Below, in pieces: positions 2,276 to 56,208 of a DNA stretch of 56,208 bases. The DNA is taken from assembly GCA_031270465.1 (NCBI GenBank), contig JAISXP010000090.1, positions 1 through 56,208 of the forward strand, in the 5' to 3' direction. Within the stretch, counting starts at the first letter, position 1, and the number at the start of each line of letters is the position of its first letter. The translations under genes and the position numbers were made by a program. Origin of the DNA: Tannerella sp. GTDB taxonomy: Bacteria; Bacteroidota; Bacteroidia; Bacteroidales; Tannerellaceae. Under the pieces are notes generated by a model, which saw nothing but the letters and a program-made list of their open reading frames with translations, was not told where the DNA came from and made no database searches.

Positions 2276-3079
2276 TTATGATTTTTCTTTTCTCTTGGGT
2301 CTCGGATCATATTGTATCGTAGATAAGGAATACCCTCCATCAATATAAATGTTCGTGCCTGTAATGTAAGATGCCAGGTCGGAACAGAGAAAGGCCACGA
2401 CAGGCGCCACATCAGCTACACATCCAATCCTTCCTTGCGGTATCCAATGATTAAATTTATCAACACCGAAAGCGGCTATTTCTTCTTTGTTCATTTCCGT
2501 TTCAATAGCTCCGGGTGATACGGTTACTACACGTATATTGTCTTCGGCCAATTCCACAGCCATACATTTTGACAGCATTTGCAAACCGGCTTTGGATGTG
2601 CAATAATGAGTTAGCCCTTTGCGGGGAATCGTATCATGGATTGAAGATATATTGATGATCACACCGCCGTTGTTGCGTTGCATCCGCCTGCCTGCCTGTT
2701 GTGAGCAAAGGAATGCGCCTTTCAGGTTTGTTCCCATAATTTTGTCCCATTCACATTCTTCCAAATCCAGCACATGCGATGTATTTTCCACCCCCGCGTT
2801 ATTAATCAAAATATCTACCTTGCCCAAGTGGGCGTCTGCATAAGCAAAAAGTTCATTTACTTTTTCGGACTTGGATATGTCCGCCTGTACAGCGTATGCC
2901 TCTACTTCATATAGCGACTTCAACTCCTGTACCAATGCTTCTGCTTTCGCTTTGCTCGAACGGTAATTGATGAGCACACCGGCTCCACATGCGGCCAGTT
3001 CTTTGCATATTTGGGCACCTATACCTTGTGCGCCTCCTGTTACTACAGCTTTTTTTCCTTTCAAATCTATGCCAGTCAT
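2276..3079 (-). CDS. SDR family oxidoreductase (gluconate 5-dehydrogenase/KduD-like)
   Basis: GGAQGIGAQ Rossmann motif, NNAGVEN, YCTSKAG (YxxxK), SPGAIETEM. Confidence 0.9.
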   Translation of the reverse strand: MTGIDLKGKKAVVTGGAQGIGAQICKELAACGAGVLINYRSSKAKAEALVQELKSLYEVEAYAVQADISKSEKVNELFAYADAHLGKVDILINNAGVENTSHVLDLEECEWDKIMGTNLKGAFLCSQQAGRRMQRNNGGVIINISSIHDTIPRKGLTHYCTSKAGLQMLSKCMAVELAEDNIRVVTVSPGAIETEMNKEEIAAFGVDKFNHWIPQGRIGCVADVAPVVAFLCSDLASYITGTNIYIDGGYSLSTIQYDPRPKRKEKS

Positions 3080-3097: not shown

Positions 3098-3787
3098 TTA
3101 CATGATACCAAATTTCTCAAATGCCTCTACCGTACTCATGCCGTTTTCCAGCGCTTTTTTTACCAGCTTCTCGCCCCGCGCTTTCTCTATGGCCCGGGCA
3201 AATACTTCCTCTGTGGCCTGCTGGGGAACGATAACCACTCCGTCACGGTCGCCATATACAATATCTCCGGGATGAACACGTATCCCTCCAAATTCGATGC
3301 TTGATCCGTAATCAATCACTTTACCCCGTGGCCCTTGATCTTGCGCATAGCTTCCCATCGAAAAAACAGGAAAATTCATGTTCAGAATTTCGTTCGTGTC
3401 CCTTGAATATCCATTCACTACGGCGCCTGCTGCTTTTAATTTTTGCGCCCTGGTGCTCATTAGCCCGCCCCAAAGCGCATAATTGGGCGATGCGCCCGAA
3501 CATATATACACCTCATTCTCTTTCAGGCTGTCCAAGGCTTCGAACATGATCCCGAAAGGTTTTTTCATGAGTGGATTATTGCTGTCCGCCACTTCTTCAA
3601 ATACGTCGGCTTCCAGCACAGGCATCGCTCTACCGATCACTACAAAGCCCGTGTTTAGCGGTTTAATAGAAGGGGGGAGGAACTGATGCCGGAAGCCTGC
3701 CTTATCCAATACATCCCCCACCAGCGCGACAAATAATTCTTTCTTTGCCATGCTGAATAATTCTTCATCATTTTTCCAAATAGCCAT
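3098..3787 (-). CDS. RraA-like / HMG aldolase-like family protein
   Basis: ALVGDVLDKAG, WGGLMSTRAQKLKAAGAVVNGYSRDTNEI (G...RD motif), HPGDIVYGDRDGVVIVP. Confidence 0.85.
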   Translation of the reverse strand: MAIWKNDEELFSMAKKELFVALVGDVLDKAGFRHQFLPPSIKPLNTGFVVIGRAMPVLEADVFEEVADSNNPLMKKPFGIMFEALDSLKENEVYICSGASPNYALWGGLMSTRAQKLKAAGAVVNGYSRDTNEILNMNFPVFSMGSYAQDQGPRGKVIDYGSSIEFGGIRVHPGDIVYGDRDGVVIVPQQATEEVFARAIEKARGEKLVKKALENGMSTVEAFEKFGIM

Positions 3788-3799
3788 CTCTCTTTATTA

Positions 3800-4216
3800 T
3801 TATTGTGTTATTAGCTCTTTTATCCGGTGCGCTAACTCTCTTTGTTGCGCTTCATGAAGAGGCAGATAGGAAACGTCATTTTTGTGCGTATTGTCATTTT
3901 CTACAATGATAAGGCCGGCTTCTTCGTCCATGGCGATATTATGCCAACAGCCTTTGGGCACATTGTAAATTTGTCCCTGTTCCATTTTCACTAATTCATA
4001 AGCCAAAGGTTCAGCGCCGGGTTTCCCTGCTATAAGGATAGCCGTCCCCTTTAGCAGGATAAAGACCTCGTCGGTTTTGTTATGCACTTCTAATTTGTCT
4101 ATCTCGTTCATCCCATGCCCGGATAGATAGTTAAGTATGGCGACCTGCCAGCCTTCACGAATCAGTACAGGATTATATCCGACGCCATTATACATATATT
4201 TTTTAATACTATTCAT
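3800..4216 (-). CDS. Small cupin-domain protein
   Basis: KTDEVFILLKGTAILIAG ... MEQGQIYNVPKGCWHNI cupin motifs. Confidence 0.75.
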   Translation of the reverse strand: MNSIKKYMYNGVGYNPVLIREGWQVAILNYLSGHGMNEIDKLEVHNKTDEVFILLKGTAILIAGKPGAEPLAYELVKMEQGQIYNVPKGCWHNIAMDEEAGLIIVENDNTHKNDVSYLPLHEAQQRELAHRIKELITQ

Positions 4217-4223
4217 AGTTATT

Positions 4224-5375
4224 TTAATGTTTTATTCGGATGGAACAATAAAGAATATAGACAAGTGCACAAAGCGGTATAACTAAACTGACTTGCTGTG
4301 TTGATACATCTGCCAGAATACCCATTAGCGGAGGTATCAACGCGCCGCCTGAAACGCCCATAATCATGAACGAGGATATTTCGTCTGTGTATTCCGGCCG
4401 GTATTGTATGGCATTGGAGAAAGCAATGGCAAATACATTGGCGCAACTCAGCCCTATGACAAACAAGCTGCACAGCAACACCGTTGTGGAGGATGCCAAA
4501 AGAAAAGTAATGAGACTCAGGATACCGATGCTCACGGAAATAATAAAAAATTTGCGCACAGATACTTTGGCAAGTAATATGGCTCCGCCGAATGTCCCTA
4601 TTGTCCTGGCTATATAGTAGAGCGTGCAGGCGTAGCCTCCTGTTTGAAGAGAAAGGGCATGATGCGCTTCCAAATATTTTGGCACGGTGGTGATCAAGCC
4701 GATTTCGAAACCAACAATCAACACAATGACTGAAAATAGCATCAATATATGTTTGTCTTTTATTAACCGCAGCACAGCGCGTCCCCAGTTATCGGAAACC
4801 GCGATTTTCTCTTCGTGAATAGGCACTGCTATTAGCCAAACAAATGATAATGCCGTAACACCTGCGTAAATAGGGAAAATGGCGCTCCACCCGCCCAGGC
4901 TTGCCGCTGCAAATCCCACAATGACCGGCCCCAGAGCCGACGATATGGCTTTTATGAATTGTCCCAAGGTGAGCATGCTTGCTAATCTCTCCGGGTGACA
5001 GACGTTTGTTACCAACGGATTGAGTGATACTTGCAGGATAGTGTTGCCTATGCCCAATAAAGCAAATGCCATGAGCACGGCAGGGAACGAATAATCAAGT
5101 AAAGGAATTAACATCCCGGTTATTGTGAGCACGGCGCTGACAAGCACCGTGTTTTTTCGTCCTATCCGTTTCATCATAACGCCTACAGGCAATGAACATA
5201 TTGCAAACCAAAGGAAGACAAGCATGGGTAACAGGTTTGCCATACTGTCATTGAGCGTAAAATCTTTCTTGACATAGCTAACGGATATACCTACAACGTC
5301 CACAAATCCCATGATAAAGAAACTGAAAAGAACAGGTAACAGTTTCAGTATTGAATGTGCTGATTTATTTTCCAT
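4224..5375 (-). CDS. MFS sugar transporter (FucP/NanT-type)
   Basis: 12-TM hydrophobic pattern, LPVGVMMKRIGRKNTVLVS loop, GNTILQVSLNPLVTNV typical of sugar MFS permeases. Confidence 0.88.
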   Translation of the reverse strand: MENKSAHSILKLLPVLFSFFIMGFVDVVGISVSYVKKDFTLNDSMANLLPMLVFLWFAICSLPVGVMMKRIGRKNTVLVSAVLTITGMLIPLLDYSFPAVLMAFALLGIGNTILQVSLNPLVTNVCHPERLASMLTLGQFIKAISSALGPVIVGFAAASLGGWSAIFPIYAGVTALSFVWLIAVPIHEEKIAVSDNWGRAVLRLIKDKHILMLFSVIVLIVGFEIGLITTVPKYLEAHHALSLQTGGYACTLYYIARTIGTFGGAILLAKVSVRKFFIISVSIGILSLITFLLASSTTVLLCSLFVIGLSCANVFAIAFSNAIQYRPEYTDEISSFMIMGVSGGALIPPLMGILADVSTQQVSLVIPLCALVYILYCSIRIKH

Positions 5376-5401: not shown

Positions 5402-8083
5402 TCATTCGTAAATCAGTTTATACGTTTCAATTGCATATTTATCCAACACCATTTGCGTCACAGTTTCCATCTCTTCTTCAATCAGGTTGGTTTTTACAAT
5501 CCGTTTCGGCTTTTTGTAAAATACCGGATGAAGTTCCTGCTGATGTGGAGATAAATTATACAGGCGGACAATCAGGTTGTCGTCATCTTCGCATTTTTTG
5601 ATGGCAGACACGACTACATTTTCATTGCCGATGTCAAAAAAGCTGCCGGATACAGGTAAATTTGCTGTCGCGTATGTATTGGGCGCAAAAACAGCCTGTA
5701 AAATTGCGTTGGAACCGGTTCCAAATCGGAAAGTTTGCGTCTGTTCTACCGGATGCGAACTCAACGAGAAGTGAAAGAAATGATCTCCGTATTGCAGGTA
5801 TTCGTTTCCTTCCCAATGACAGCTTTTTCGGGACGCAAGCAACACCGGCTGAATAACGGGATTCGAGCTGGAATTGCCGACAGGGTCAATATAGTCGACT
5901 ACAGCCACCGAAGAGCTGAGCGTGACACCGAAGTGTTCCCCGGAAACATTGATCCAGTTGGATATGCTGCGCGGATGTTGCTCACTGTTAGGCACATTGT
6001 ATCTTTCCCCTGCCGCCCCCGGCATTTCGTCCTCGCCGATGCGCACCACACCGTACGGAACTTCGTAGCTTACTTTTCCCCCACCGGCACGGACGGGAAG
6101 CATCATGCGGTATTCCCTGTAAAGAATACCTTCCCAGTTAAGAATCGCAATATCAAAATCGATTTTCTTGACCTGGTGGTAAACTGTAACCGTTTGTTCC
6201 ACGACCGCATGGCGTATCGGGCTGCGATATGAAAATGAAGTGTACACATCGCCGTTTTCCTTTATGTTCCATCGGGGAAAATGGCTGGATACTTTATCGA
6301 ATCCTTCCATAGAGGGCTGCTGAATGGCGTCAAATCCTCCGGCGCCATTGCCTTCCGATTTCATGGTAACGACCTCCCCACCCAGAAAATTTTCGGTATC
6401 AAGCAACGCTATTCCCAACTCCCTGTCCTCTATTTGCCGGATACCTCCGCTCGCAAAAGTCAATTTATAAAATGCATTTTCAAATGTATCGCCCTGCAAC
6501 CCGGCAGATGTTGTTTTTGGGGTTTTGTCGGGATTCAGATAAAAAGTAGTGTAGCCCAGTGGAGGCGCATCTTTCGCTACAAAACAAAGCGTAGCGGAGG
6601 CAATGCTTCCGTCGTCATGAAAAACCGTATTCGATAGCTGACCGGGCAATGTATTTCCCCGGCAGTCTGTTACTGTTAGATTCGCGGCATAACCTTTTTT
6701 CAGTTGCAAAGGTATTTTCACAGGGTCGTTCCTCTGCCACGACAACGTATTGAATACGACCACCGGAATGCCGGCAGCATGGTTCACGCGTATTTGTGAT
6801 GCCAGTGCATGGAGTTCCGCATTCAAAACGGCGCCGGCTTCACCCAGTGCATACTCGTATTTTCGGAGGAAAGAGTTGTCCGTAATGTCTCCGTTTTTAC
6901 CTCCCCATCCATGGTCGGGATAAATTTTCGACATCCATGCCTCGGACAGTCTTTTCCAGGGATAATGCATGAAACTGCCCTCGACCAGTGCATTAAACGA
7001 AGCTATTTTTTCGGCGGCAGGCAGGAGAATATCGCCTTTACGACTTGCCGTGATTGCCTGTTCGTGCGAAGGACCGTGAATGTAGAGCCATACATCGGGA
7101 CGTTCTCCTTTGATTGAAGGAAGACCGGACGTGGATTTGTCCAGTGCGCTAAAAAAATCGTCGGCCGTAGCATGCACGAACTTTGGAAGACCGACTTTTA
7201 TTTTTTTTCCGTTTGCATTTTGTATATGCGTGATACTGTTCCATTTTTCCGTAAAGGGACGGCAGTTTGCCACCGGCTTCTGGTCCCATATAAACTCATA
7301 ATTGAGCATTGCAGGCATTACGGCTTTTGCTCCGGGAATATTGTTGTATTTTGAATACCAGTCGACGGACTCTTTGCCGAGTTCCTTTATGGCAGATGAA
7401 TCTTCCATTTTCAATACATCATAGAAATAAATATAGTGCCCCGGAGAATACGTGCGAACTTTCGAGCCGTCGGGAGCTTCCCAGTAGAAAAGACCCCGTT
7501 TGTGACGACTGATGACCAGATTGTCCACTCCGGCTTTTTTCATGATTTGAGGCATTTGCAACGTGCGTCCCGGGACGTCCACATTAAAATAGGACTGTGT
7601 TTTGTATCCGTCAAATGTATTTTTCAGCCATCGGTTTCCCAGGTAAAACTGACGGGACAAAGATTCTCCGGAATACATATCCTCATACGGTTGAACGTAA
7701 GTCGCACCGATGCAAATACGTCCTTCTTTCAAGTACTTGTCCAGAATTTCCTTTTTATCCGGGTGCCGGTGAAGATATTCCATCACGATGGAAGTCTGTT
7801 CAATATCCATCCTGAAGCCGGGTTCTTTTTCCAGTCGTTCAATAAAGGGTGTCAACCATAAGGTATCGCGATTAATCGTACAGGCTTCGATGTGGTCCAG
7901 CCATCCCAAATCCTGATGGGTGGTAGTGAACAAAAATATGTTCCCGTTTTTCAGTTGCGAGTCCGATATTTTCTTCAATAACTCATACGAATCATTGTCA
8001 CAGGTATATATCCCGTTTTTCAATTGTGCATGACTTGTGAAAAACAGAAGCGAAAAACCGATAGATAAAAAAAACGTCTTCAT
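5402..8083 (-). CDS. Secreted glycoside hydrolase family 38 (alpha-mannosidase-like)
   Basis: Signal peptide MKTFFLSIGFSLLFFTSHA; N-terminal TTTHQDLGWLDH and SYFNVDVPGRTLQMPQIMKKAGVDNLVISRHKRGLFYW; C-terminal beta-domain; 893 aa. Confidence 0.85.
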   Translation of the reverse strand: MKTFFLSIGFSLLFFTSHAQLKNGIYTCDNDSYELLKKISDSQLKNGNIFLFTTTHQDLGWLDHIEACTINRDTLWLTPFIERLEKEPGFRMDIEQTSIVMEYLHRHPDKKEILDKYLKEGRICIGATYVQPYEDMYSGESLSRQFYLGNRWLKNTFDGYKTQSYFNVDVPGRTLQMPQIMKKAGVDNLVISRHKRGLFYWEAPDGSKVRTYSPGHYIYFYDVLKMEDSSAIKELGKESVDWYSKYNNIPGAKAVMPAMLNYEFIWDQKPVANCRPFTEKWNSITHIQNANGKKIKVGLPKFVHATADDFFSALDKSTSGLPSIKGERPDVWLYIHGPSHEQAITASRKGDILLPAAEKIASFNALVEGSFMHYPWKRLSEAWMSKIYPDHGWGGKNGDITDNSFLRKYEYALGEAGAVLNAELHALASQIRVNHAAGIPVVVFNTLSWQRNDPVKIPLQLKKGYAANLTVTDCRGNTLPGQLSNTVFHDDGSIASATLCFVAKDAPPLGYTTFYLNPDKTPKTTSAGLQGDTFENAFYKLTFASGGIRQIEDRELGIALLDTENFLGGEVVTMKSEGNGAGGFDAIQQPSMEGFDKVSSHFPRWNIKENGDVYTSFSYRSPIRHAVVEQTVTVYHQVKKIDFDIAILNWEGILYREYRMMLPVRAGGGKVSYEVPYGVVRIGEDEMPGAAGERYNVPNSEQHPRSISNWINVSGEHFGVTLSSSVAVVDYIDPVGNSSSNPVIQPVLLASRKSCHWEGNEYLQYGDHFFHFSLSSHPVEQTQTFRFGTGSNAILQAVFAPNTYATANLPVSGSFFDIGNENVVVSAIKKCEDDDNLIVRLYNLSPHQQELHPVFYKKPKRIVKTNLIEEEMETVTQMVLDKYAIETYKLIYE

Positions 8084-8161: not shown

Positions 8162-9685
8162 CTAATACCCCGAATTTTGTATCAATTGGGGATTTGTCTG
8201 CATTTCGCGCAACGGAATCGGGAAAAGCAACTGCTTCTCCGTCAACCTGAATGCACCGTCTCCGTAAGGGAAAGTATAACCGGTAAAATCCGTAAATCTT
8301 TTGGTTTTCAGATCAAATACTTTCCTTGTCCTTACCATGTCGAACCAGGTTTGGTTTTCGAAACACAATTCCCAGTAACGTTCTTTCCATACGGCCTCCC
8401 TGAAATCGTTCTGGGAAGCGAAGTCCGCCGATGCGGAAACTTTCAGTCCGGCCCTTGCACGCACCCTGTTATAGCAGTCCAGCGCCAGCGCATTTGGCGA
8501 ACCGTCCGCTTCATTTTGGGCTTCGGCGTAAAGAAGCAGCATGTCGGCATAACGCAGATTGGGATAGTTCTGGGCACCCTTCAAGTCAATCATCGCATCA
8601 TCGTCAAAGAACTTGTAGACATGTGCGGGAAAGTAAACCGTCACGTCCGGATCCTCCCAATTGGGATAATTGGTAAAGAAAAATCCTTTTTCCTGTATGC
8701 GCAAGTCTTGCGGATCAAATGTTCGGATAAACGACGAATCGGGATAGAAACATCCGTATTCGTTTGAATATCCGCTGATTCTCGAATAGCGCGGCAGAAG
8801 CCACGCATGAATCTGATGTTCGGCTATTCCTACGGCAAACTGGGTTTGAAAGATGTGTTCCGTCTGATTTCCTTTTTTTCGGTCGCGGAGATCGTCGATG
8901 GAAGGAAACAGGCTGTACCAGTTGCTGTTGATTACCTCAGCCGCCTTTTCCGCCGCTCTGGCATACATTTCCTTTTTCTGCAGCGGATAGCCTGCCATGG
9001 TCAGATAGACTTTGGCCAGCAGCGACTTGACAGCCCCTTTGGTTACCTTTCCCGATGTGGAAGTATTGGGCAGGGCGGTTTTTTCCGCTTCGAGCAAATC
9101 GGATACGATTTGGTCGTACACCGCTGCTGCCGGATCGCGGGGCACATTGACCGTTTCCGCCGATTCAGTCGGCTCAGTGCGCAGCGGAATGTCGCCATAC
9201 ATCTGAACCAGCATAAAATAGTACCAGGCGCGCAAAAAATAAACTTCGCCCATGTAATGCGACTGCGTGTCGCTGCTCACGTCCGGTATGCCGGGAAGTT
9301 TGGACAATGCGATGTTGCAGTTTTCAATCCCCTGGTAATAGGACTGCCACCAGTCCTGGGCATACAAATTGTTTGAACTGGCATTCGTTTCGCGAAATTC
9401 AGCGTTGTAAGACGCCTGGCCAATAGACGTCAGACACATTCCCGTTGCAAATTCGAGCATGAAGAAAGGGCTTTCGCCATAAGTGGCAACAAGCCTGTAC
9501 GGATTCCTCAACAAAGCGTAGCAGGCGGAAACGGCCTGCTGTGCATGTTCCGGTTTCGTATAAAAAGTTTCGCTGCTGAAAAATGTTTTGGGTTTGACAT
9601 CCAGATAATCTTCGCAGCCGGACAAAATCATCAATGTGATGATACCTATCGAAACAACTATTCTATTTTTCATAATTGAAATCAT
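8162..9685 (-). CDS. RagB/SusD family nutrient-uptake outer membrane lipoprotein
   Basis: Lipobox ILSGCEDYLDVKPKTFFS; NLRYADMLLLYAEAQNEA; C-terminal FPIPLREMQTNPQLIQNSGY. Confidence 0.95.
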   Translation of the reverse strand: MISIMKNRIVVSIGIITLMILSGCEDYLDVKPKTFFSSETFYTKPEHAQQAVSACYALLRNPYRLVATYGESPFFMLEFATGMCLTSIGQASYNAEFRETNASSNNLYAQDWWQSYYQGIENCNIALSKLPGIPDVSSDTQSHYMGEVYFLRAWYYFMLVQMYGDIPLRTEPTESAETVNVPRDPAAAVYDQIVSDLLEAEKTALPNTSTSGKVTKGAVKSLLAKVYLTMAGYPLQKKEMYARAAEKAAEVINSNWYSLFPSIDDLRDRKKGNQTEHIFQTQFAVGIAEHQIHAWLLPRYSRISGYSNEYGCFYPDSSFIRTFDPQDLRIQEKGFFFTNYPNWEDPDVTVYFPAHVYKFFDDDAMIDLKGAQNYPNLRYADMLLLYAEAQNEADGSPNALALDCYNRVRARAGLKVSASADFASQNDFREAVWKERYWELCFENQTWFDMVRTRKVFDLKTKRFTDFTGYTFPYGDGAFRLTEKQLLFPIPLREMQTNPQLIQNSGY

Positions 9686-9702: not shown

Positions 9703-12700
9703 TTAAAAGACAATATTTGCACCTATATTGAATGTCCTGGGTTTGGGATAGTTGAAAAATTCAACACCCTGAGCGAATGTATCGCCGTACGTAGTGGTTT
9801 CCGGATCATAACCTCCGTATTGGGTGATCAGGAAAAAGTTCTGCGCGTTTACATACAGCCTCAGTTTTTCCAGCGTAAGTTTTTTCAGCCAGCTTCCACT
9901 GAAGGTATATCCCAACACAAGGTTGCTGCCGCGGATAAAGGAACCGTCTTCGATGTAATGGTCGTTCAGCTTCAGTTCGGAACCGTCCTGCGACTCCACC
10001 CTTACGCCGGCAATCATGGTGTTTTGATTGTCCGGCCGCCAGGCATCCAAAACAGTCGTAAATGAATTGGAAAGCGTCTGGCGGTCTTCCGCCGTGGAAT
10101 AGTCCAGCCGCATGATGTCATTCCCCTGACGGAAAGCGATGTCGAATGCCAAATCAAAGTTTTTATACCGCAGGGAAGAATTCAGGTTTCCGTCTAATTT
10201 GGGCAATCCGTTTCCGATAATTCTCCGGTCGTTCGAATCGATTTTACTGTCATTATTCAAATCTGCCCATTTCAAATCGCCCGGTTTCTTTCCGTATCTT
10301 GCGGCTTCGGCTTCTTCCGCCGTACCCCAGGTTCCCAGCCTGACATATCCTACATACGAATTGACGGCTTCGCCCACCCGGAGGATATTGGTTGCATCCA
10401 GGAAGTAAGGCCCCATGTAGATATCTTCGTCGTTTTCACCCAGTTTCAGGATTTTATTCCGGTTGGACGAAAGTACCAGATTTACATCCCATGTCAAATC
10501 CCTTGTTTGCACAATTCCGGCATTGACTGTTAGTTCAATGCCCTTGTTTTCCAGGTTGCCGATGTTTTTCATGGCGCTCGTATAGCCCGACGTGGCGGCC
10601 AGGGGTGCATTCAGCAACAGGTCAACCGTTTTTTTGTAGTACCAGTCAAGCGAAACATTCAGGCGGTTGTGGATGATTCCCACATCGACTCCCACGTCGA
10701 ACTGTCCCGTCTTTTCCCATCTCAGGTCTGCATTGGGAATACGCCCCAATCCGATTCCGTTGTAACGAGTTCCATCAAAAACAGCCGTATAAGAACTTGT
10801 GGAAGACAGCGCCTGGAAGTTGGGAATCGCATCGTTGCCGGTAAAGCCGTAGCTTGTCCTCAGTTTCAAATTGGAAATAAAAGACTGCGATTTCATAAAC
10901 TCCTCTTCAGACATGCGCCAGGCCAGCGCGCCCGAAGGGAAAAAGGCATACTTGTGATTCACACCGAAGCGGGAAGAGCCGTCGACACGTGCCGTTACGG
11001 TAGCAAGGTAACGATTGTTATACACATAGTTGACGCGCCCGAAATACGAATTCATCCGCCACTCGTCCCAATCGGAACTGCTCGGACGCGGATTGCTCCC
11101 TGCGCCCAAATTGTTCCACTGAAAGAAGTCATCGGCAAAGCTATACGATGCAGCCGAAACGCTTTCGTAATTATTCTGATTCCAGCTGGCTCCGGCCATC
11201 GCGTTGAGACTGTGCACCTCGTCAAATATCCGGTTATAGGTCAAATAATTTTCGTTTTGGAGATAAATATTGCGATTCGCCTGAATATCTGCTCTTCCCT
11301 GCTGATCTTTAGACCTGAGCCTTACATCTCTTCCGGAGTAGTGATTGTATTTATACCAGCTAATTTGACTGGATAAGGAAGATTTCAATTCCAGGCCTTT
11401 AGCCAAAGTCAAAGTGATATTAAAATCACCCAGTCCTTTTGTCTCTGTAGTTTCAATAGTCAGAGATTTCAGAAGCTTTACGGGGCTTTCGGCGCCTTCC
11501 GTTCCCAGATGTTGCGCATTGGATCCGTAGGTTCCGTCCGCATTATACAGCGGGATGATGGGAAGCGCTTCGATCAACATGCGGGTTGCATTCAATCCTC
11601 CGACCGTACCTTCCTGCACGTTGTTTTTTAACGAATGAAGGATGGCCAGGCTCATGTCTACTTTAAACCATTTGTTTACGGTGATGGAATTGGTCAGCTT
11701 TGCCGTGTACTTCTTGTAATAGCTCTCCAGCATGATGCCGTCGTTATCATCATATCCCAGCGACAGCGAAGAAGCCAGCTTGTCCGTTCCACCGGAAACA
11801 GAAAGGGCGTGATTCGTAGCCAAAGCGGTTTGCAGTGCTTCGTCCTGCCAGTCGGTGTCGTATTTGGGCGTTCCGTCGGGATTGAACAGATCCGGTTCCA
11901 ACTGCCCGTAGTCGGGCATGGCACGCCCTTCCTTCCATGCCCATGCCTGCCGCTCCATTTCCATGTACTGTGCGGAATTGAGCAATTTAATTTTTCGCTC
12001 GGGAGGCAGATAGCCGATGCCGACACTCCCGTTGTAAATCACCCTCGCCGCACCCGATTTTCCTCTTTTCGTGGTTACCAGTATGACGCCATTTGCTCCG
12101 CGCGCACCATAAATGGCAGTAGACGATGCATCTTTCAACACGTCCACCGATTCGATGTCGGCCGTATTCAACATACTGAAGTCGGCGCCGATTACGCCGT
12201 CCACTACAAACAGCGGATTGTTGGTTGCATTGATGGAGTTGTAGCCTCGAATATTTACCTTGAAAGAGCCGCCCGGAATACCCGTATTGTTGTTAACCGT
12301 GAAACCGGCCACTTTCCCCTGTAACGCACCCAACGGATTGGTTGACGTTTTCTCAAGAATTTTTTCCGAAGACACATTGGCCACCGAACCCGTCAAGTCC
12401 GACTTTCGTATGGAGCCATACCCAATCACTACAATTTCCTCCAACACCTGCGTATCTTCTAATAGCCTAATTACAAGGGAATTGCCCCCCCCCCAGTTGC
12501 GGTTAACACGCTGATTTCCTGCGTGATATAACCGATATACGACACTTGCAGCGTCGCGTTCTCCCTGACGGACAGCGAGAATTTCCCGTCCACGTCCGTC
12601 ACCGTACCATTGGTGGTGCCTCTTTCCACCACATTCACACCGATGACCGGTTCGTCATTGACGTCGATCACCGTACCGCTTATCCGTCGCTGCGCAAGCA

Positions 12701-12803
12701 CAGTCAACGAACAGCAACAAAGAATACACAGCATAAACAGCCGCTTCTGCCATGTATTCCGCTTTCTGAAAAACTTTAATTTCATCATGGTTACTTTAAA
12801 CAT
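9703..12803 (-). pseudogene. SusC/RagA TonB-dependent receptor interrupted by a single frameshift in a G10 tract (candidate phase-variable gene; off as sequenced)
   Basis: ORF 12471-12803 (signal peptide plus CarboxypepD_reg-like domain, ends ...ISVLTATGGGAIPL*) and ORF 9703-12447 (plug plus barrel, LEEIVVIGYGSIRKSDLTGSVANV...). The reverse-strand tract ACT-G10-CAATTCCCTTGTAATTAGGCTATTAGAAGATACGCAGGTGTTGGAGGAA reads TGGG(G)NSLVIRLLEDTQVLEE in the other frame, joining both halves with 8 or 11 Gs. Confidence 0.9.
12485..12494. repeat. C10/G10 homopolymer inside susC
   Basis: attg-cccccccccc-agttgc, counted directly at 12485-12494. Confidence 0.95.
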
Positions 12804-12937: not shown

Positions 12938-13942
12938 TCAGCCAAAATTCATAACTGCAGGCAACACCATTTTGGCTTTCACAGTCTCACTGCCGGCGCT
13001 TTCCAGTTCATTCACCAGAATACGCACCGCCTGCTGTCCGATTTCACGTACCGGCTGTTCGGCAATATGCATCTTCGGCGCCAGGATTTCGAAACTCGGC
13101 ATGGTATGCAGACAGGCCAGTCCGATTTTCTCCGTAATATCAATCTCATGCCGGTAGAAATACCTCAATGCTTCCATCGCCAGATAATGAGTTGCAAAAT
13201 AAAACCCGTCTACTTCGGGAATCTCCCTGAATATATTCTCCAGCACACGGATAATATCTGTCTCGTATTCACTCCGTTTCACTTCTCCGTACAGTGCCGG
13301 TATCACCGGTAAACCGGCTTCCGACAACGCCCGCCTGTATCCGTCGCGCCGCAGGTTCATCACTAAAAGATGCGTATCCGAGGTAATTATTGCAATCTTT
13401 TTTCGGCCTTCCCCGACAAGACGGTCTACAAGCCTGCGGCTGCTTTCTTTATTGTCGAGAATGACATAATTGGTATCCAGTTCGGGAAAATACCGGTCTA
13501 TCAGCACAAACGGATACTTTTCTTCAATCATGATGTCCAATTCTTCCCTGGAATGTTTCGTCGGAGCAATAATCAACCCGTCCACCCGCTTTGACTTCAA
13601 CATCCGTATGAGTTTACTTTCGCGTTCGGAATCGGCCTCCGAACTGCAAAAAGTCAGCGAATAGTTGTATTTCTCAGCCTCCACCTCGACTTCCCGGGCG
13701 ATGTGCGCATAAAATTCGTCGTTGATAGATGGTATGACCAGTCCCAGCGTATAGCTGCTCCCGTTGGTCAGACTTCTGGCGAGCAGGTTCGGCTGATAAT
13801 TGACCTTCTTTGCATACGCCAGAATCTTCTCCTGCGTGGACAAACTGATTTTCCGTCTGTCGCCCTGACCTGCCAGTACCCACGAAACTGTAGTCTTGGA
13901 CACGTTCAACGCATTCGCTATATCCTTCATTGACAAATTCAT
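12938..13942 (-). CDS. LacI family transcriptional regulator
   Basis: N-terminal HTH MKDIANALNVSKTTVSWVLAGQGDRRKISLSTQEKI; periplasmic-binding-like domain. Confidence 0.93.
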   Translation of the reverse strand: MNLSMKDIANALNVSKTTVSWVLAGQGDRRKISLSTQEKILAYAKKVNYQPNLLARSLTNGSSYTLGLVIPSINDEFYAHIAREVEVEAEKYNYSLTFCSSEADSERESKLIRMLKSKRVDGLIIAPTKHSREELDIMIEEKYPFVLIDRYFPELDTNYVILDNKESSRRLVDRLVGEGRKKIAIITSDTHLLVMNLRRDGYRRALSEAGLPVIPALYGEVKRSEYETDIIRVLENIFREIPEVDGFYFATHYLAMEALRYFYRHEIDITEKIGLACLHTMPSFEILAPKMHIAEQPVREIGQQAVRILVNELESAGSETVKAKMVLPAVMNFG

Positions 13943-54113: not shown

Positions 54114-54330
54114 ATAGACCAGCCTTGTTTTTTCGTATGTAAGAAAAGCATTTCCTGTCCAAAACGCCTTTGGCATTTTTTCTATCCTTTCATTACACCC
54201 CCCCCACATACAGGCAGAATCTGCCATGATAAATCGAACGGGGCGGAATCCTGTCCGAACAAATGATGAAGGTCATTTGTCGTCGCATTAGTTAAAAAAA
54301 CCTGCAAATACAAAAAAGCGCAGGAAAAAC

Positions 54331-54474: not shown

Positions 54475-54518
<44 letters not shown>

Positions 54519-54728: not shown

Positions 54729-55466
54729 ATGAGTACAATCAAAGCAATTGCTCATCTGAATGAGCTTACAAAAGACGTGACGGACGACTACTATCTGCGT
54801 CCGGACATCCTCGGCACGCTCCGTGACGACGACATCATCCTGCGTCTGAAAAAAAAGGAAATCGCAACGGAGAACGTAAACGGGAAAGCCTTCGTGCAGA
54901 CGTTTCATCGCGAATGTGCGGAAGCTGTAAACGAAGGACACAACGTGGTGACCGGCCTGTTTCACTCCACGCTTGGGTTCAACGGTCCGGTGAGGGCTAA
55001 AGACCTTGGCCACAATGTACCGGCCGGTCAGGTCAACGCCCGCATGAACTTTACGCAGGGCGAATATGCCCGCGAGGCGCTGAACGACCTCACGATCAGC
55101 GTAGCCGAACAGCCTGCGCCGACCGGCCCCGTAATTCAGGCTGTAACCAATCCGACAGTTGGCCTGGCCGACACGCTCGACACCGGCGCCATGGCGCTGG
55201 TACAGGGCATGAGACTGGCCGTCAGGGGAGAAAAGACGAACGAAATCGGTGTCTATTTCACTTCGGTCGACGGGACAGCCTCCGTACGTATTCCCGCCGG
55301 CCAACTGTCGCCCAACACGCCGACCCGGCTCCAGTTCGTGCTTCCGGCCGATGTCAAGCCCGGCGAATGGCGGGTGAAGGTCGCCACGCAGGCGCTCGCG
55401 AAAGCCCGGACATTTACCAAAGACGTACGCGAATATGAATATCCGAACATCATCACGGTCGTCTGA
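54729..55466 (+). CDS. HU/IHF-like DNA-binding-domain protein, DUF4469-type
   Basis: YYLRPDILGTLRDDDIILRLKKKEIATENVNGKAFVQTFHRECAEAVNEGHNVVTGLFHSTLGFNGPV resembles Bacteroidota HU-like plus Ig-like two-domain proteins; family name from memory. Confidence 0.7.
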   Translation: MSTIKAIAHLNELTKDVTDDYYLRPDILGTLRDDDIILRLKKKEIATENVNGKAFVQTFHRECAEAVNEGHNVVTGLFHSTLGFNGPVRAKDLGHNVPAGQVNARMNFTQGEYAREALNDLTISVAEQPAPTGPVIQAVTNPTVGLADTLDTGAMALVQGMRLAVRGEKTNEIGVYFTSVDGTASVRIPAGQLSPNTPTRLQFVLPADVKPGEWRVKVATQALAKARTFTKDVREYEYPNIITVV

Positions 55467-55754: not shown

Positions 55755-56208
55755 ATGACAAAAAAAATGATTAACGGCATGAAAAATGCCAAACTGAAAA
55801 AACTTGTAAATATGATGATGCTGTCCGCTTTTCTCCTGATGACGGGGATAGGGACGGCAAGCGCCCGTGGCGGTGATTCGCAGGAATCGCCCGAACCGGC
55901 GCAGAGTAAGACCCGAATCACCGGAACGGTCATTGACCGGACGGGTGAACCGGTGATTGGCGCCAATGTGGTGGAAAAGGGCGTCACTATCAACGGAACC
56001 ATCACCGACGTGGACGGCAAGTTCACACTGGAGGTTCGTGCAAATGCCATCCTGCAAATATCCTTTATCGGATACGTTACGCAGGAAGCCAGTGTGAGCG
56101 GACAAAGCGAGTTGAATATCACGCTTGCGGAAGACAATCTGGCGCTGGAAGAAATTGTGGTCGTGGGCTACGGCACCCAGAAGAAAGTCACGCTGACCGG
56201 TGCGGTCG
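55755..56208 (+). CDS. SusC/RagA family TonB-dependent receptor, N-terminal part (truncated by the window edge)
   Basis: Own translation: MTKKMINGMKNAKLKKLVNMMMLSAFLLMTGIGTASARGG...RITGTVIDRTGEPVIGANVVEKGVTINGTITDVDGKFTLEVRANAILQISFIGYVTQEASVSGQSELNITLAEDNLALEEIVVVGYGTQKKVTLTGAV. Confidence 0.93.
   Translation, partial: MTKKMINGMKNAKLKKLVNMMMLSAFLLMTGIGTASARGGDSQESPEPAQSKTRITGTVIDRTGEPVIGANVVEKGVTINGTITDVDGKFTLEVRANAILQISFIGYVTQEASVSGQSELNITLAEDNLALEEIVVVGYGTQKKVTLTGAV

Follow-up and report, generated by a model that had tools for sequence, protein, structure and literature searches.

A run of ten G residues splits the reading frame of a SusC-type receptor gene in the window (the whole 56,208-nucleotide stretch analysed here, on contig C51), and tracts of differing length recur at the same codon position in SusC genes throughout the genus. 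As the original prediction proposed, we consider it likely from comparison of these sequences that the G tract of this SusC family acts as a contingency locus, turning receptors ON and OFF by slipped-strand phase variation. Four lines of evidence support this reading: the recurrence of the tract at one position in many SusC paralogs and species; the variation in its length and frame among orthologs with near-identical barrels; the existence of 34 OFF genes that are otherwise intact, and under purifying selection where tested; and an excess of in-frame states in short tracts alongside random frames in long ones.

The split susC gene and its locus

The window lies on one of the 183 contigs of a 3.03 Mb draft genome (90.7 % complete) of an uncultured bacterium, from a group that we take to be termite gut dwellers. 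Its minus strand carries an apparent polysaccharide-utilization operon headed by the split susC and continuing with susD, which encodes the partner lipoprotein (8162–9685), a GH38 family glycosidase (5402–8083) and an MFS transporter (4224–5375). An RraA-like aldolase (3098–3787), a short-chain dehydrogenase (2276–3079) and an M24 metallopeptidase family protein (1099–2412), also on the minus strand, possibly belong to the same operon. Upstream of susC and on the same strand lies a LacI-type regulator (12938–13942), a candidate controller of the locus.

Exactly ten C residues occupy positions 12485–12494 of the plus strand, which read as G10 in the minus-strand gene and, as had been predicted, split its frame. 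Translation of the upstream reading begins at 12788 (MMKLKFF...QEISVLTATGGGAIPL) and stops at 12473–12471, the product ending in TGGGAIPL; as assembled, this 5' half (12471–12788) specifies 105 aa, which cover the signal peptide and the greater part of the CarboxypepD regulatory domain. The 3' half (9703–12483) lies in another frame and encodes the last strand of the regulatory domain, the TonB-box region, the plug and the beta barrel; it is open for 918 codons between the tract and its stop at 9703, and either eight or eleven Gs would join the two halves in frame, again as foreseen. Pfam searches matched CarbopepD_reg_2 upstream of the tract, over model positions 1–65 of 88 only, and the TonB plug downstream of it, from residue 15. 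TIGR04056 (SusC) was found above cut-off and matched the two halves in two frames, with 805 bits for the downstream half. Together with the adjacent susD, the regulatory domain, plug, barrel and TIGR04056 match identify the gene as a SusC/RagA TonB-dependent receptor. The tract alone accounts for the change of frame and has the form of a contingency locus, namely a homopolymer within the reading frame whose length toggles that frame.

By base composition, the occurrence of a G9 run somewhere is unremarkable, and the window holds four overlapping G8 matches against 1.3 expected; it is the position of the tract that is remarkable. Elsewhere in the window we observed a perfect (GA)19.5 microsatellite (54478–54516), a possible second slippage site, 212 bases ahead of an HU-like DNA-binding/DUF4469 gene at 54729, which itself precedes another SusC start at 55914. 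The same intergenic region contains a C8 run (G8 on the minus strand) at 54198–54205.

Position of the tract in the receptor

The tract had been placed at the junction of the regulatory domain and the plug. We find it instead approximately 10–15 residues ahead of that junction, within the loop that leads into the final beta strand of the regulatory domain. When an in-frame paralog (L129) was modelled with AlphaFold (mean pLDDT 72), the tract fell in a low-confidence loop, residues 201–206, that joins the last two strands of this domain. As the tract sits in such a loop, the model agrees with the expectation that length changes would be tolerated, at least where these come in threes. Four of six in-frame paralogs scanned possess an STN signalling domain, which the SusC of the window does not.

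Tracts in SusC paralogs of the same genome

Paralogs were located by DNA search with the start of the gene, and G tracts were counted by pattern search. Approximately 24 distinct runs of at least nine Gs were found in the genome, six of which lie within SusC paralogs and coincide in codon position; a seventh tract at this position (G7, on contig C91) was recovered with a coding-context pattern. Five of these seven paralogs, whose tracts range from G7 to G10, are in frame, all with G9, whilst the window gene (G10) and that on C91 (G7) are out of frame. Amongst the ~45 SusC genes of the genome, a TIGR04056 search independently revealed both of the latter to be split at the tract. Most other SusC paralogs have a short, ordinary loop at this position (e.g. 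QEIPVANQT), and one on contig C180 carries an interrupted G run and is in frame.

A number of further features were observed in SusC genes of this genome. One, on C112 (L204), is split near base 8430 by a frameshift in the plug with no homopolymer present, and is either a pseudogene or an assembly error. Two others contain an in-frame G9 (C103:18192–18200 and C128:9236–9244; L026 and L028), which in one of the pair lies inside the signal peptide and in the other further into the protein.

Tract length and frame across the genus

A pattern built on the SusC context returned 44 matches in the genus, whereas its reversed control returned none; 16 of 41 genomes matched the strict pattern and 20 of 41 a looser version, again with no match for the reversed pattern. 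Since the tracts recur at one position and the reversed pattern never matched, chance was rejected as their source. From 73 tracts fetched, three (L146, L187 and L195) were dropped, as a contig end or odd sequence just upstream made their frame unassignable, leaving 70 usable tracts of 6–15 Gs in 20 of the 41 genomes. Thirty-six of these are in frame, and the remainder are distributed over the two wrong frames (19 and 15). Tracts of up to nine Gs are in frame in 27 of 39 cases (p = 5e-6 for the enrichment) and those of at least ten Gs, which draft assemblies may miscount by one, in 9 of 31 (Fisher p = 0.0016 for the difference), although these statistics treat loci as independent when many are related by descent, and thus overstate their independence. 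That short tracts are mostly in frame and long ones random is supported by these counts and matches the prediction for slippage.

The variation is also seen between orthologs, so that for intact genes ON and OFF alleles of differing tract length exist in different species, as in a contingency locus. Orthologs of the C97 gene in six species carry 9 (in frame), 11 (out), 15 (out), 13 (out), 8 (in) and 7 (out) Gs; the barrels of five of these (those with 7, 9, 11, 13 and 15 Gs) are 87–95 % identical, with the sixth at ~70 %. Other ortholog groups show the same mixture of lengths and frames between species. The tract is, furthermore, specific to its position, because elsewhere in tract-bearing SusC genes GGG makes up only 10 % of glycine codons and runs of six or more Gs are rare, with six occurrences in 160 kb of these genes outside the tract.

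It might be argued that all true lengths are in frame and that the frameshifts were created by homopolymer miscounts. Long G runs are indeed error-prone, the genomes are drafts and several are metagenome assemblies; moreover, the G9 counts of two genomes (G002 and G015) are suspiciously high and some contigs end near the tract. The G9 counts in question were checked, did not represent many clean G11 tracts, and were not used. Such error leaves unexplained both the tracts of 6–15 Gs at one position in dozens of genes and the 12 of 39 short tracts that are out of frame at lengths of only 7–9 Gs, and we found no frameshifts in 160 kb of downstream SusC sequence from the same assemblies. As such, we regard sequencing or assembly error as very unlikely to be the cause. 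Contig ends within ~100 bases of a tract were noted at the end of C59 in the genome of the window, the ends of G007:C203 and G054:C288, and the starts of G002:C128 and G010:C135; this would be expected if mixtures of length or similarity between paralogs had broken the assembly.

A second possibility is that the polymerase or ribosome slips on the tract during expression, such that some full receptor results at any DNA length and the tract sets the level of receptor rather than its presence or absence. G runs can promote transcriptional or translational slippage, and the window gene shares its wrong frame with its closest ortholog, a frame that a −1 ribosomal shift would repair in either. Programmed frameshifting, however, entails a consistent offset and, usually, a downstream stimulatory structure. 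Here frames 0, 1 and 2 all occur, with both wrong frames well represented and ortholog groups mixing them all, and the 60 bases after the tract are weakly structured, below the average, with no stimulatory structure evident. Recoding of this kind is therefore unlikely in our estimation.

Intact downstream halves of out-of-frame genes

If the frameshift had killed the receptor, as the broken frames assembled for the window gene and its closest ortholog might suggest, decay should now be under way, and lesions elsewhere in the gene had been named beforehand as evidence against a switch. None were present: in the 34 out-of-frame genes we counted 27,142 open codons after the tract and no other lesion. 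Twenty-five of the 34 reach their natural stop at 886 residues or more, and the rest remain open to the end of the available stretch. This intactness was not pre-selected, because the search pattern ends at the TonB-box region. Barrels of the out-of-frame orthologs tested are under purifying selection (dN/dS 0.03–0.09). Between the window gene and its ortholog, neither of which is in frame, dN/dS is 0.074, which, alongside the 918 open codons, speaks against a pseudogene in this instance; for the family, the absence of lesions in all 34 OFF genes contradicts that reading, and we consider decay to be exceedingly improbable. In a second pair of orthologs, again both out of frame (L190 and L210), 575 base differences have accumulated at a dN/dS of 0.028, with no stop observed versus ~24 expected without selection. 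Out-of-frame SusC genes thus appear, from their sequences, to serve a function for at least part of the time.

The same data bear on the suggestion that the tract is a mutational by-product, in which a G-prone loop slips without any selection for switching and the result is tolerated since the cell can often dispense with these receptors. Length change is tolerated in the loop, and the frames of tracts of ten or more Gs are close to random, both of which are compatible with this idea. Against it, in-frame states are enriched in short tracts, strong selection maintains the downstream halves of OFF genes, and a synonymous interruption of the run would be easy, given how seldom glycine is encoded by GGG elsewhere in these genes. 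We thus judge a pure by-product to be quite unlikely, and retain slipped-strand ON/OFF switching as the best explanation.

Distribution beyond the genus

Among 393 genomes from 206 genera of Bacteroidales, no other genus was found to carry the tract, apart from one unrelated match (G060), and a scan of 297 genomes of the phylum returned none besides that of the window itself. Closer to home, in the same family, a clear example is present in one genome (G465) from a sister genus and a less distinct one in another (G439). Among the nearest named relatives, the SusC ortholog of Tannerella sp. Cc175_bin44 is 92–93 % identical to that of the window over the 286 residues available, whilst that of Tannerellaceae bacterium BH.11_4 is further removed (72 %) and has no tract; therefore, the tract was either gained in the lineage of the window or lost in BH.11_4. 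The tract-less BH.11_4 gene (L039) contains an in-frame TAG in the same loop, near base 3955.

Sequence flanking the tracts, and intergenic tracts

Just 3' of the tract, rare AT-rich codons are far commoner across the 70 loci than elsewhere in the same genes. At three positions there, CTA, ATA and TTA account for 14 of 63, 22 of 29 and 28 of 41 codons for their amino acids, respectively, compared with 2 %, 18 % and 7 % elsewhere, and the 60 bases 3' of the tract have both a higher AT content and less structure than the remainder of these genes. This codon bias hints at a constraint acting on the DNA itself or at exchange of segments between paralogs.

Additionally, we found intergenic G8–G10 tracts on contigs C130, C64, C132, C49, C149 and C2 (L030, L121, L031, L018, L032 and L010, respectively), located 178–421 bases upstream of SusC genes or of a regulator gene that resembles a hybrid sensor. 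Several of the intergenic G9 tracts are preceded by TGTTAAY, and the paralogous loci on C130 and C64 have nine and eight Gs in the same context. A widespread repeat was rejected as their source, since TGTTAAYGGGGG occurs only six times in the genome and is therefore not a common element. These tracts may represent a second, transcriptional kind of switch. A broader scheme, to which we give only tentative credence, would be a genus-wide combinatorial switchboard of poly-G tracts, combining coding tracts at a shared position with a transcriptional layer of tracts upstream of SusC and sensor-regulator genes, and in which a module made up of the coding tract and its AT-rich flank has moved between receptors whose barrels are otherwise unrelated.

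A model for switching

In the mechanism that we propose, polymerase slippage at replication, the simplest cause of the length changes, would add or remove Gs and thereby join the two halves of susC in one frame or separate them. When they are joined, the cell would make a full receptor whose glycine-rich loop varies in length. Out of frame, as assembled for the window gene, translation would end just past the tract and yield nothing more than a secreted piece of the N-terminal domain; as the downstream half has no signal peptide of its own, its sequence predicts that no receptor should reach the outer membrane. The transporter would thus be absent in the OFF state, and SusD and the products of the genes beyond it may drop through polarity, an effect that is plausible because susD starts 17 bases after susC ends. 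As no fewer than seven SusC genes in this genome, and dozens in the genus as a whole, share the position of the proposed switch, the combination of receptors that are ON or OFF could differ from lineage to lineage. From this arrangement we infer that slippage takes place within a clone, that the receptor is lost when OFF, that polarity follows, and that there is a benefit in the form of diet switching or phage escape. Most of the genus possesses MutS1, which would damp slippage, so that tract lengths would need to change in the face of mismatch repair; loss of that repair was rejected as a cause for the same reason.

Comparison with known systems

Phase variation of surface proteins in the Bacteroidales is known chiefly through DNA inversion. 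For Bacteroides fragilis, invertase-driven variation of SusC/SusD is on record by way of its citation in a 2025 review of phase variation (Nakayama-Imaohji 2009, cited in PMC11868660), a review that mentions Bacteroides in connection with inversion. Our searches of the open-access literature turned up no account of homopolymer or poly-G switching in Bacteroidetes or in SusC. A homopolymer switch in SusC would provide a second, recombinase-free route to varied nutrient uptake, and possibly to varied phage receptors, to which software that searches for inversions is blind and whose genes are liable to be annotated as pseudogenes.

The B. fragilis system, as cited there, resembles the one predicted here from sequence in that SusC/SusD surface proteins of Bacteroidales vary in expression; it differs in acting through recombinase-driven inversion of DNA, whereas the frame change described here is explained by a coding homopolymer. 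In Campylobacter and Helicobacter (PMC8355987, PMC2823697), as proposed here, many contingency genes per genome are switched by G or C tracts, in coding and intergenic DNA; the present case differs in that a single protein family has its tract at one homologous position and in that MutS1 is present. A further parallel lies in the haemoglobin receptor genes hmbR and hpuA of Neisseria, for which poly-G phase variation is established (PMC3786947), and where outer-membrane uptake genes are likewise toggled ON and OFF by a G tract within the reading frame. Those are iron receptors of another phylum, with one tract in each of two unrelated genes, unlike the family of SusC paralogs considered here, which share one homologous tract position and in which the receptor is paired with SusD. 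Thus, with switching of SusC by inversion and poly-G switching in Neisseria both already known, a homopolymer switch in SusC would constitute a new variant.
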